DNA from: Aristaeella lactis | GTDB taxonomy: Bacteria > Bacillota > Clostridia > Christensenellales > Aristaeellaceae | NCBI RefSeq assembly: GCF_018118585.1 | Contig: NZ_CP069421.1 | Location: forward strand, 2,170,001 to 2,234,000 | Direction of reading: 5' to 3' | DNA: 64,000 nucleotides | Part shown: positions 15,700 through 54,208 of the stretch, in pieces | How positions within the stretch are numbered: the first letter of the stretch is position 1 | Layout: every line of letters starts with the position of its first letter | Notes under the pieces: model-generated | Databases searched by the model: none | Seen by the model: the letters and a program-made list of their open reading frames with translations, nothing else | Told to the model about the DNA's origin: nothing | Translations under genes and position numbers: made by a program

Positions 15700-16005
15700 G
15701 CTACGCTCGTCCCACTTCGTGGCCCGGGGCTGATACCCGCAACTTCAATCATCGCGACTGTCTCTCAGACAGTTCGCTCGTTTCAGTTGACCTCAGAACC
15801 GATGAGATTTCCTCCACTGGAGGTCATCGGTTCTTCGCCCCGTTCTCCACTGAAATAGAATCCGCAACCTCAATCGTCGCGACTGTCCCCCAGACAGCTC
15901 GCTCGTTTCGGTTGACCTCAGCTCTGATGATATATCTGCCACTGGCAGTCCTCAGAGCTTCGCCCACTGGCTCTTTCTCCGGGCGTTCCGAACCCCAGGA
16001 TGACA
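15700..16005 (-). repeat. Structured hairpin module, minus orientation
   Basis: Gene-free. It holds two copies, in reverse orientation, of the nested hairpin also found at 22.2-22.45 kb and 53.1 kb. The outer stems differ (GAACCGATGA versus AGCTCTGATGA, each with its matching partner arm) and so do the inner stems (CCTCC/GGAGG versus TGCC/GGCA), while the loop ACT and framework stay the same. GCAACYTCAATC...CGCGACTGTC end motifs occur twice. Confidence 0.8.
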
Positions 16006-22054: not shown

Positions 22055-22600
22055 TTGTCATCCCGAGCATAGTCGAGGGGAGTGAAGGAAGCGGTGCCAC
22101 AGTGTGGCATTTACCGAAGGTAAAAGTGACCTGGAGTCCTGTCGCGCGCGGTGCGCGGGGTTCGAAACGCCCGGAAAACGAGCCTGTGTGCTCGTTTTCA
22201 GTGAAGAACGGGGCGAAGAACCGATGACCTCCAGTGGAGGAAATCTCATCGGTTCTGAGGTCAACCGAAACAAGTGGTCTCCACAGTGTGGAGCCACGTC
22301 GATTGAGGTTGCGGGTATCAGCCCTGGGCACGAAGGAATTCCGCCCGCGGTGCGTGTGCGTTTCCTTACCGAAACAAGCAATGCGATGCGCTCCAGGGCG
22401 AACCTCTGATGACCGCCAGTGGCGGAAATATCATCAGAGGGTTTGGAGCGCCCGGAGAAAGAGCCAGTGGCTCTTTCTCAGCGAAAAACGGGCGGCAGCC
22501 CCGAGAGGTCAATCGAAAGGGAGCAAGCTCCCCAGTGGGGAGTTGCGACCATTGAGATTGCGGTAAGTGCGCCGATTGAGGTTGCGGATATCCCTTACTA
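22055..22600 (+). repeat. Structured hairpin module, long copy
   Basis: Gene-free. Begins with a GTCAT element, then hairpins TGCCAC-AGT-GTGGCA (22095-22109) and TTTACC-GAA-GGTAAA (22110-22124), then GGAGTCCTGTCGCGCGCGG, nested hairpins with outer stems GAACCGATGA (about 22217-22255) and CCTCTGATGA (about 22405-22442), AGAGCC-AGT-GGCTCT, and two GATTGAG(A/G)TTGCGG end motifs. The right part is nearly identical to 53.1-53.3 kb. Open frames here are by-products of the GC-rich repeat. Confidence 0.85.
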
Positions 22601-40411: not shown

Positions 40412-41266
40412 ATGCCGAGAACAGCAAGAAAAACCAGCTTATCCAACATCTATCATGTCATGCTGCGTGGAATCAACAGGCAGAACATTTTTGAAGAGGA
40501 TGAAGATCGGCTGTATTTCATGAATATCCTGGGAAGATGCAAAAAAGGTTCAGGATTTAAGCTCTATGCTTTTGTTTTGATGTCCAATCATGTTCATCTT
40601 CTGATAGAACCGGCAGATGAATCGCTGGACACAATCTTCAGAAGGATCGGCACGCGCTATGCCGTCTGGTTTAACCAAAAGTATCAACGGGTCGGTCATT
40701 TGTTTCAGGATCGATTCAGAAGTGAAAACGTTGAATCTGGCCTGTATTTCATGACAGTTTTACGATATATTATTCAAAATCCGATGAAGGCAGGAATCGA
40801 AAGCCGCCCGGGCAGCTATCGCTGGAGCAGTTTCCTTGCTTATGAACAGGGAAAAGGCACAGTAACAGACACCCAATATGCGTTGGATCTCTTTGGCGGA
40901 AAGCAGCAACTGGTTGAATATCTCAATCAAAAGAATGATGATGATTCTGTCATGGATGAAGCCAGTTGTGACCGGCGCCTTAAGAATGATCTTGCTAAGG
41001 AAAAGATGCGCAGGATTACACAATGCTCATCCGTTTCAGAATTTGAACAGCTGGATTCATCTCTTCGAAAAGAGTACGTAAGAAAAATGCACCATGAAGG
41101 GCTTTCATTAGGCCAGATATCACGCTTGACAGGAATGCCGAAAACAACAGTCTACAAAGCCGTACAGGTACCTGAGGATCAGGCCGGCGCTGAAAAGCCT
41201 CTGCAGCTTCACGAACCCGAACCGGATTTTGTGCTATACTGTATGGATCCGGATACTATCTGGTAA
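40412..41266 (+). CDS. REP-associated tyrosine transposase (RAYT, Y1/HUH superfamily)
   Basis: 285 residues from ATG 40412. N-terminal PRTARKTSLSNIYHVMLRGINRQ, HUH metal motif in SNHVHLLIEP near residue 60, and RYIIQNPMKAG downstream, the arrangement of TnpA_REP proteins, which bind and cleave REP hairpins as single-stranded DNA. A C-terminal helix-turn-helix (LSLGQISRLTGMPKTTVYKA) is present. It is flanked on both sides by family-a palindromes, its likely substrates; the same palindromes occur elsewhere in the window without a transposase. Intact, probably active or recently active. Confidence 0.93.
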   Translation: MPRTARKTSLSNIYHVMLRGINRQNIFEEDEDRLYFMNILGRCKKGSGFKLYAFVLMSNHVHLLIEPADESLDTIFRRIGTRYAVWFNQKYQRVGHLFQDRFRSENVESGLYFMTVLRYIIQNPMKAGIESRPGSYRWSSFLAYEQGKGTVTDTQYALDLFGGKQQLVEYLNQKNDDDSVMDEASCDRRLKNDLAKEKMRRITQCSSVSEFEQLDSSLRKEYVRKMHHEGLSLGQISRLTGMPKTTVYKAVQVPEDQAGAEKPLQLHEPEPDFVLYCMDPDTIW

Positions 41267-52864: not shown

Positions 52865-52915
52865 ACAAATTCCAGTTTGTTGGGATACCTCTTGAAAAGA
52901 AAACTCGGAAGTTAT
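52865..52915. repeat. 3' framing repeat of the beta-lactamase-fold gene
   Basis: ACAAATTCCAGTTTGT (52865-52880) identical to 49904-49919, then a 35-bp tail with few differences. Confidence 0.85.
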
Positions 52916-52939
52916 ACGGGCTAACGGTCATTGGTTGAT

Positions 52940-53340
52940 GTGAACGAGTCGCCTGCAAGGGTACGCAGTTTTGTACTGGACTCGAACCAGGGAACGAAAG
53001 AAGTGATAACCCAGTGGGTTATTTGCCGCAGGCAAAAGCGCGGTGGAGTCCTGTCGCGCGCGGTGCGCGGGGCGGGAATACCGCCCGCGGTGCGTGTGCG
53101 TTTCCTTACCGAAACAAGCAGTACGAAGCGCTCCAGGGCGAACCTCTGATGACCGCCAGTGGCGGAAATCTCATCAGAGGGTTTGGAGCGCCCGGAGAAA
53201 GAGCCAGTGGCTCTTTCTCAGCGAAAAACGGGCGGCAGCCCCGAGAGGTCAATCGAAAGGGAGCAATCTCCCCAGTGGGGAGTTGCGACCATTGAGATTG
53301 CGGTAAATGCGCCGATTGAGGTTGCGTAAGAGAGCGAAAC
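52940..53340 (+). repeat. tRNA-like fragments and structured hairpin module
   Basis: GATGTGAACGA (tRNA-Val anticodon arm-like), CAAGGGTACGCAGTTTT, GTACTGGACTCGAACCAG (tRNA-Val T arm), then hairpins ATAACCC-AGT-GGGTTAT (53006-53022) and TTTGCC-GCA-GGCAAA (53022-53036), GTGGAGTCCTGTCGCGCGCGG, GGGCGG/CCGCCC, the nested CCTCTGATGA hairpin (about 53144-53180), AGAGCC-AGT-GGCTCT and GATTGAG(A/G)TTGCG end motifs. No gene. Confidence 0.85.
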
Positions 53341-53360
53341 AACTATGCCGAAGGCACATA

Positions 53361-53565
53361 TGGACTCGAACCAGTGTTCCGTTCGCTCAATCGTCGCTGC
53401 TCGCCCTTGGAGCGGGCTCGCCGCTCGTTTATGTGTCATTCTGAGCAGAGCCGCAGGCGACGTCGAAGAATCTCCTACGGGTTCAGAGCGAATCAACACA
53501 CATGGGAACCGCATAGTAATGCACCTAAAATGTCATCTCGACCAAGGCCGTTTACGGCCGCGTGG
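53361..53565. repeat. 205-bp near-perfect direct repeat, left copy
   Basis: Identical to 60853-61057 except at one position by my reading. Starts with the tRNA T-arm word TGGACTCGAACCAGTG and ends with GGCCGCGTGG; contains two GTCAT elements. Confidence 0.9.
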
Positions 53566-53739
53566 GGAACGATCCGAGTGGTGACCCGGTGGGTCATTCG
53601 CCAAAGGCGAAAATAAGGTGGAGTCCTGACGCGCGCGGTGCGCGGGACGGGGATCCCGTCCGCGGTGCGTGTGCGTTTCCTTACCGAAACAAGCAATGCG
53701 AAGCGCTCCAAGCGAGCAGTGCGCCGATTGAGGTTGCGG
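53566..53739 (+). repeat. Structured hairpin module inserted in the left 205-bp repeat
   Basis: About 174 bp present here between CGTGG and AGAGATCT, absent at the matching place in the right copy (61057/61058). Contains TGACCC-GGT-GGGTCA (53582-53596), TTCGCC-AAA-GGCGAA (53597-53611), GTGGAGTCCTGACGCGCGCG, GGACGGG-GAT-CCCGTCC and ends GATTGAGGTTGCGG. Confidence 0.85.
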
Positions 53740-54080
53740 AGAGATCTCCCCCGGCCGCAGCCGGATAATTGTTAATTGATCTTCGGCGTACTGGACTCGA
53801 ACCAGTGTTCCGTTCGCTCAATCGTCGCTGCTCGCCCTTGGAGCGGGCCCGCCGCTCGTTTCGCGCTAACAAACTCAGGGCGCTTGCCTGCGGCACTCCA
53901 CACTGTGGGGAACGATCCGCGTGGTGACCCAGTGGGTCATTCGCCATAGGCGAAAACAAGGTGGAGTCCTGACGCGCGCGGTGCGCGGGACGGGGATCCC
54001 GTCCGCGGTGCGTGTGCGTTTCCTTATCGAGGCAAATAGCGGGTTGCAGCAAAAGCAATACCCGCTATGCCGACCGAGAT
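53740..54080 (+). repeat. Further repeat block and hairpin module copy
   Basis: 53740-53804 matches 61058-61124 (end in tRNA T-arm word). A fragment of the 205-bp repeat follows, then a fourth hairpin module with TGACCC-AGT-GGGTCA (53925-53939), TTCGCC-ATA-GGCGAA (53940-53954) and GGACGGG-GAT-CCCGTCC. No gene. Confidence 0.8.
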
Positions 54081-54103
54081 TGCGGAAAGACTTCCTTCGT
54101 TTG

Positions 54104-54126
54104 CCCCATCGATGTGAACGATGTGC
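54104..54126 (+). repeat. tRNA-Val anticodon-arm copy (possible attachment-site remnant)
   Basis: 23 bp identical to 61377-61399 inside the tRNA-Val gene, same orientation, 7.27 kb away. Covers the anticodon stem-loop and one or two flanking bases. Confidence 0.8.
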
Positions 54127-54179
54127 ACTGGGCTACCGGTCAAGTTGTCAAACTGAAATGTGGACGTGAACACACCTGA

Positions 54180-54208
54180 AAAGCCTTTAAAATAAAGGCT
54201 TTTTCTAT
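54180..54208 (+). terminator. Terminator-like hairpin
   Basis: AAAGCCTTTA-AAA-TAAAGGCTTT then TTCTATTTT. Followed by three GGTGTTCA direct repeats; on the other side GTGAACACACC is their complement. Confidence 0.75.

Follow-up and report, generated by a model that had tools for sequence, protein, structure and literature searches.

Do hairpins whose two arms change together betray a folded RNA, or can they be the mark of a repeat that is kept, and moved, as DNA? The question arises from four copies of a hairpin module with covarying arms in the window, by which we mean the whole 64,000-nt stretch of DNA that was analysed. A reading made from the sequence alone had claimed repeated hairpin modules at 22095, 53006, 53582 and 53925, and all four were found in the sequence. 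The framework that the modules were said to share is exact in three of them, whereas the copy at 22095 differs in the first base and reads CTGGAGTCCTG, not GTGGAGTCCTG; the exact framework has 9 occurrences in the 3.45-Mb genome, 3 of these inside the window. With up to three mismatches allowed, the window contains six matches to CGCGCGCGGTGCGCGGG (0.37 expected) and four to GCGGTGCGTGTGCGTTTCCTTA (0.00 expected), counts so far over expectation that the copies are not due to chance.

The module exists as a unit, but it is one composite of a nested family and not an isolated module. From compared copies and alignments we named the parts A, B, C, D and E. Part A is a junction with two hairpins (hairpins 1 and 2 of the sequence-only reading), part B a long hairpin containing hairpin 3, and part E a roughly 55-nt hairpin that ends in TTGCGG and has CGAAA / ATTGA as its internal loop; the module of the window is the composite A-B-E. 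The C element (103–104 nt) joins a first hairpin (GGCGA...) to an E hairpin, its alignment of 104 columns starting with GGCGA and ending with TTGCGG, and the D element is a 65-nt hairpin with the end CGGGCGGCAGCCCCG. A BLAST search with one 536-nt composite (L009:1390-1925) gave 66 matches whose ends clustered at few query positions, which indicates that the composite is built of reusable parts. D elements were found inside B, C and E hairpins, and nesting reaches three levels in copy 1, where the E hairpin holds a C element that in turn holds a D element (Table 1).

Table 1. Hairpins, elements and related genes, with positions in the window or locus handles
Feature	Position or locus	Strand	Remarks
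Hairpin 1, four copies	22095-22109, 53006-53022, 53582-53596, 53925-53939		
Hairpin 1 of copy 1	53006-53022	+	ATAACCC-AGT-GGGTTAT
Hairpin 2, four copies	22110-22124, 53022-53036, 53597-53611, 53940-53954		
Hairpin 3, intact, three copies	53070-53086, 53645-53661, 53988-54004		In the copy at 22095 split by about 180 nt (22158-22340)
Hairpin 3 of copy 1	53070-53086	+	Within part B
A-B-E composite, copy 1	52991-53326	+	First module of the sequence-only reading; E hairpin split by C element
C element in E hairpin of copy 1	53137-53303	+	Split by D element; placed by comparison with uninterrupted copies (L040, L008) and model R1 match 53220-53303
D element in C element of copy 1	53179-53243	+	65 nt
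A-B-E composite, copy 2	53566-53739	+	Uninterrupted
A-B-E composite, copy 3	53909-54085	+	Uninterrupted; E hairpin different
A-B-E composite, copy 4	22082-22587	+	Insertions in both B and E hairpins
D-type element with C inside	22158-22340	+	Splits B hairpin of copy 4; right edge inexact
C element in D-type element of copy 4	22212-22314	+	103 nt; model R1, 120.6 bits
C element in E hairpin of copy 4	22397-22563	+	D element at 22439-22503 inside; model R1 match 22480-22563
C element	15737-15839	-	103 nt; model R1, 112.1 bits
C element	15862-15964	-	103 nt; model R1, 109.2 bits
RAYT-like Y1 transposase gene	40448-40777	+	289-aa frame; inverted repeats of type GGGAACGATAGGGACGGTCC on either side
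In-frame copy in GH3 glycosidase	L173		
In-frame copies in MutS2	L181		Four tandem copies, two among the 111
In-frame copy in pseudouridine synthase	L087	antisense	

Other repeats accompany the family. A dispersed repeat of about 70 nt that starts with TGGACTCGAACCAGTGTTCCG lies between or beside the hairpin elements at 53361, 53792 and 60853 of the window, the copies at 53361 and 53792 being 99% identical, and a hairpin-like repeat (CATTCTGAGC...GTCGAAGAATC) adjoins hairpin elements at 53437-53476. Stretches resembling TGTCATCC/TTC...GA flank many element copies and can host D elements.

Within the family, nearly fixed unpaired letters surround variable but matched arms: NGT triloops, tandem G-A steps and the CGAAA/ATTGA internal loop. 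The NGT loop is present in 91 of 92 first hairpins of C and in 83 of 92 E hairpins. In DNA, GNA triloops are very stable, as are tandem G-A steps, which agrees with the letters seen here. Of 37 C copies 103 nt long, 73% have an open forward frame 1 (42% in shuffles), and two reverse frames are open in 92% and 100% (60% and 56%), while forward frame 3 and one reverse frame are open in none (43% and 61%), a pattern that may mirror merely the fixed letters.

The arm-to-arm compensatory change on which the earlier claim had rested is genuine, and it becomes stronger in a larger alignment. Among 22 copies of the C element found by sequence alone, 26 of the 35 predicted pairs show double-sided change; among 111 model matches (99 distinct) the number rises to 30 of 35, with 98.7% of cells paired, although perfect pairing is favoured in this set because its 92 sources were mostly picked among the best-scoring matches. 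The covariation score of the 111 matches is 0.447, compared with a mean of 0.155 for shuffled controls and 0.041–0.073 for slid pairing partners. The A-B part, with 24 copies from the genus, has double-sided changes at 14 of its 36 predicted pairs.

The covariation is almost strictly Watson–Crick, and this bears on the choice between "folded RNA or single-stranded DNA" that the sequence-only reading had offered. Across 94 unique full C copies, a set picked largely by model score, we counted 23 G-T, 7 A-C and 35 other mismatches in 3285 cells, 9 of the G-T cells falling at a single pair; the 22 BLAST-found copies gave 4 G-T and 6 A-C in 770 cells. Full C copies numbered just 4 among the loci found by pattern, so a count independent of structure scoring was taken from E hairpins, using the 54-nt ones (42 of the 90 distinct) from a pattern scan that fixes conserved letters and not most stem positions. 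These contained 4 G-T, 11 A-C and 53 other mismatches in 588 cells, the last probably coming from loops of other size that fall out of register. Where structure score played no part in choosing the copies, G-T is thus rare and no commoner than A-C (4:6 and 4:11). As a control, TPP riboswitches of the same genus were aligned and folded with the same tools (27 of 44 matches, leaving out 3 loci at contig ends and matches without a locus); with only 17 pairs and two TPP subtypes mixed, they gave 51 G-U and 4 A-C in 459 cells. The G-T share of 0.5–0.7% in the element sets against 11% G-U in the riboswitches is a large difference, and without the G-U-rich pairs of both sets it shrinks to 14/3191 against 8/405 (p 0.002), a value to be taken as a guide only, because cells are not independent. 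The B stem is an exception, with two haplotypes and fixed G-T pairs in each. In a published model, G-T is little favoured in single-stranded DNA viruses and G-U is favoured in RNAs (PMC6993869). The choice had been a fair one; the contrast with the riboswitches makes its RNA half the less favoured and speaks for a hairpin kept at the DNA level over a classical RNA.

The elements occur throughout the genus, one of gut Clostridia that may be Aristaeella or a close neighbour of it. Model R1, built from the 22 C copies found by BLAST, matches all 45 genomes examined from the genus, at 1 to 46 copies per genome and at least 626 in total (E<=1e-3), counts that are lower bounds because at most 88 candidates were scored per genome; this genome has 46 matches at E<=1e-3 and 69 at E<=10. 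When 248 genomes were sampled across the order, 6 matched R1, 4 of these in this genus, and outside the genus the matches amounted to 2 of 14 other genomes of the family (weak) and 0 of 230 others sampled in the order. The weak matches (L333, L334, L338 and L339, in G184 and G156) belong to two other genera of the family and possibly represent a diverged branch. Plain BLAST found matches in 34 of 37 genomes of the genus and in 0 of 24 others. A pattern scan of named genomes matched at least 120 stretches, and the 80 matches listed all came from uncultured Clostridia or Clostridiales, often with names referring to ruminant samples, apart from one Candidatus Limiplasma. The plasmid and phage records searched gave no match to the elements. 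Five viral contigs (L430-L434) match one E pattern and none matches a second, and copies may accordingly ride on prophages.

The elements lie at unrelated sites, C copies having sharp edges and unrelated flanks. Among 106 C copies with distinct flanks, a G stands two bases before GCGA in 103 and directly before it in 99; on the 3' side, a G directly follows TGCG in 103, and then an A in 78. Five of the 106 sit within another element's NGTGG loop (L004 and L013 possibly stemming from one event), and the 3' junctions of these nested copies have one to three bases not accounted for by a simple GG duplication; a GG target duplication cannot be told from a simple insertion at GG. Tandem arrays occur as well, head to tail with a period of 102 to 104 nt. 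A crude gene finder of our own making places 96 of the 111 C copies between genes and has the other 15 touching an ORF. Of the copies with a called gene on either side, 20 lie between convergent and 5 between divergent genes, 30 are of type (+,+) and 23 of type (-,-); the orientation preference between genes is not strong (30 against 23), and summed over the neighbour counts, 56 copies follow a gene in sense and 33 in antisense.

Four of the 111 copies, in three genes, lie in frame within an ORF that continues on both sides (Table 1), and for MutS2 the relatives provide empty sites. The MutS2 query has matches in 42 of 45 genomes, some solely via a MutS-domain paralogue, and in 20 genomes the two parts on either side of the insert meet directly, at query residues 233 and 368 with a 6-nt overlap, so that the net insertion in G030 is 136 codons, or 4 x 102 nt. 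The MutS2 of G064 contains one copy at the same place with different arm sequences. Over 30 loci covering the site (L340-L369, of which L349 ends at a contig edge), the element is present in 2, and several have unrelated longer loops.

We consider it probable that the elements are non-autonomous, hairpin-forming mobile DNA repeats. Such an element would be recognised as a DNA hairpin, either on the single strand at replication or as a cruciform, by an enzyme supplied in trans that would read the fixed unpaired letters, and the element would be inserted at GG, sometimes within another element's NGTGG loop. The arms would be free to change provided that pairing is kept, whether through a failure of unpaired copies to spread or through replication in which one arm serves as template for the other. 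The host would tolerate copies chiefly in intergenic stretches, with an occasional in-frame copy within a protein. A more specific version, which we put forward tentatively and regard as doubtful, has the hairpins moved by a single-strand-acting enzyme that recognises their shape and a few unpaired letters and often lands them in the loops of other such hairpins; elements would then nest, and the composites formed in this way (A-B-E, C in D, C in C) would go on to spread as units in their own right, with arm sequence free and only pairing counting.

Several observations speak against mobile DNA. Movement is read from sequence comparison and no enzyme was found: a transposase travelling with the elements was sought in the flanks of Y1_Tnp genes and among the 15 largest clusters of proteins near E hairpins, with none detected. 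The nested junctions do not match a clean 2-base 3' duplication. Some single-strand elements show replication-strand bias; with dnaA taken as the origin, this genome alone gave 29 against 11 (p 0.006), but four genomes together gave 81 against 64 (p 0.18), and the bias is not consistent. The B stem has fixed G-T pairs in both haplotypes. The excess of G-T over A-C in the largest alignment (23 to 7, both rare, with 9 of the 23 at a single pair) is a lean that an RNA reading would predict.

That the elements are instead structured regulatory or catalytic RNAs, made from many intergenic loci and with stems selected on the RNA, would also account for the extreme covariation, for fixed unpaired letters and tandem G-A steps of a kind familiar from RNA, for the fixed G-T pairs of the B stem and the G-T excess in the largest set, and for the excess of copies following a gene in sense. 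We nevertheless find it improbable, given the scarcity of G-T beside the TPP control, the nested, tandem and in-frame copies within coding genes, and the lack of any Rfam match above threshold. That RAYT-like Y1 transposases encoded in these genomes move the elements in trans, as REP-type elements whose hairpins are unlike the repeats beside the transposase genes themselves, is unlikely, even though this genome has four Y1_Tnp genes above the Pfam cut-off, one inside the window, and REPINs are likewise hairpins with compensatory changes (PMC3116915) and REPs also occur within genes (PMC3733652). As carriers of the elements these genes were rejected: each of the four has other repeats, of GGGACGG type, on its flanks, and within about 1.5 kb of them none of the searched element motifs occurs. 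The elements, at 65–180 nt, are moreover longer than REPs, and the C alignment ends without a GTAG or CGTC tag. The three Y1_Tnp genes outside the window each adjoin a different GGGACGG-type repeat. A recurrent neighbour gene as the enzyme was likewise dismissed, for the 517 proteins near E hairpins at 284 loci gave, as their 15 largest clusters, transporters and products of other ordinary genes, with no transposase among them.

A different kind of explanation, quasipalindrome template switching, would make the elements old palindromes kept perfect without selection by a polymerase that copies arm from arm. The mechanism is described in the published literature, and it would leave G-T and A-C states nearly absent, as they are. 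Double-sided changes are seen even between copies only 3 bases apart, so matched changes arise quickly, through selection, arm-to-arm copying or both. Against it, 34 close pairs of copies (<=5 differences, the pairs not being independent) have 25 one-sided and 14 double-sided stem changes, which means that single-arm mutations occur, and commonly. Loop inversion is a by-product of template switching (PMC8604942), yet the inverted loop ACN is found in 0 of 92 first-hairpin loops and 0 of 92 E loops. Nor does template switching explain the fixed unpaired letters and the dispersal. As the sole cause we judge it very improbable; it may act alongside the movement of mobile DNA hairpins, which we continue to prefer.

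Covariation is commonly taken as proof of a structured RNA. Here textbook covariation comes with DNA-like base pairs, so RNA screens could list such elements as candidate RNAs; palindromic candidates have been reported in a microbiome RNA screen (PMC8040213). Counting G-T against A-C is a cheap way to separate DNA from RNA hairpins. With hundreds of copies, 45 related genomes and both filled and empty sites in a conserved gene, the family can also be used to ask how palindromes of the RPE kind move, still an open question in a review (PMC2229807).

The earlier reading could not connect the module to a known family, and no sequence match was found by us either; the kind, however, has been described before: RPE, ERIC, CIR and REPIN, for example, are small dispersed palindromic repeats (PMC2229807, PMC3116915). 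In the Rfam check that it had proposed, no family of Rfam 15 reached threshold inside an element: a gathering search of the whole window returned only a tRNA, and when 52900-54200 and 6 loci were searched permissively, no hit within an element exceeded the gathering score. Just past an element, L009:1971-2060 (-) has a sub-threshold match to Gut-1 RNA (E 0.004; 32.8 bits against a gathering score of 50); the stretch consists of short hairpins in a row, with GTGAAATA-like linkers as spacers. In the main text of open-licence papers, no description was recognised as this hairpin family.

Compared with structured noncoding RNAs, the elements lack G-U tolerance on the transcribed strand, the B stem excepted. 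Cyanobacterial small dispersed repeats also land in one another and are very small (about 20–30 nt), whereas the present elements have 65–180 nt and covarying arms. Integron attC sites, which keep structure rather than sequence, were considered for that trait; the tandem copies here run head to tail. In way of life the family appears closest to RPE, in size and in-frame gene insertion. RPEs are dispersed palindromes of about 105–146 bp with frames fused in frame into protein genes, their target duplication and mover being listed as unknown (PMC2229807); the mover was likewise not found here, and the C element is similarly palindromic, dispersed and roughly 100–150 bp long, with in-frame copies in GH3, MutS2 (two genomes) and pseudouridine synthase genes. 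The likeness is one of description, and RPEs occur in other bacteria, while the present family is modular, nested and tandem with measured covariation. In hairpin behaviour the closest relatives would be REPINs, as hairpin DNA repeats with compensatory changes that also occur inside genes (PMC3116915, PMC3733652); REPs, however, are 20–40 bp and tagged with GTAG or CGTC, and flanking of a cognate RAYT gene was found at 0 of the 4 Y1_Tnp genes of this genome. The two-arm layout seems closest to the CIR of Caulobacter and Brucella, where a linker connects two independent stem-loop arms (PMC2229807), an arrangement that the C element shares; the CIR loop has a GANTC site in place of NGT. Our best reading, made by comparing descriptions, is therefore a new family akin in lifestyle to Rickettsia palindromic elements and REPINs and distinguished by its modular nesting and by covariation that is almost strictly Watson–Crick.
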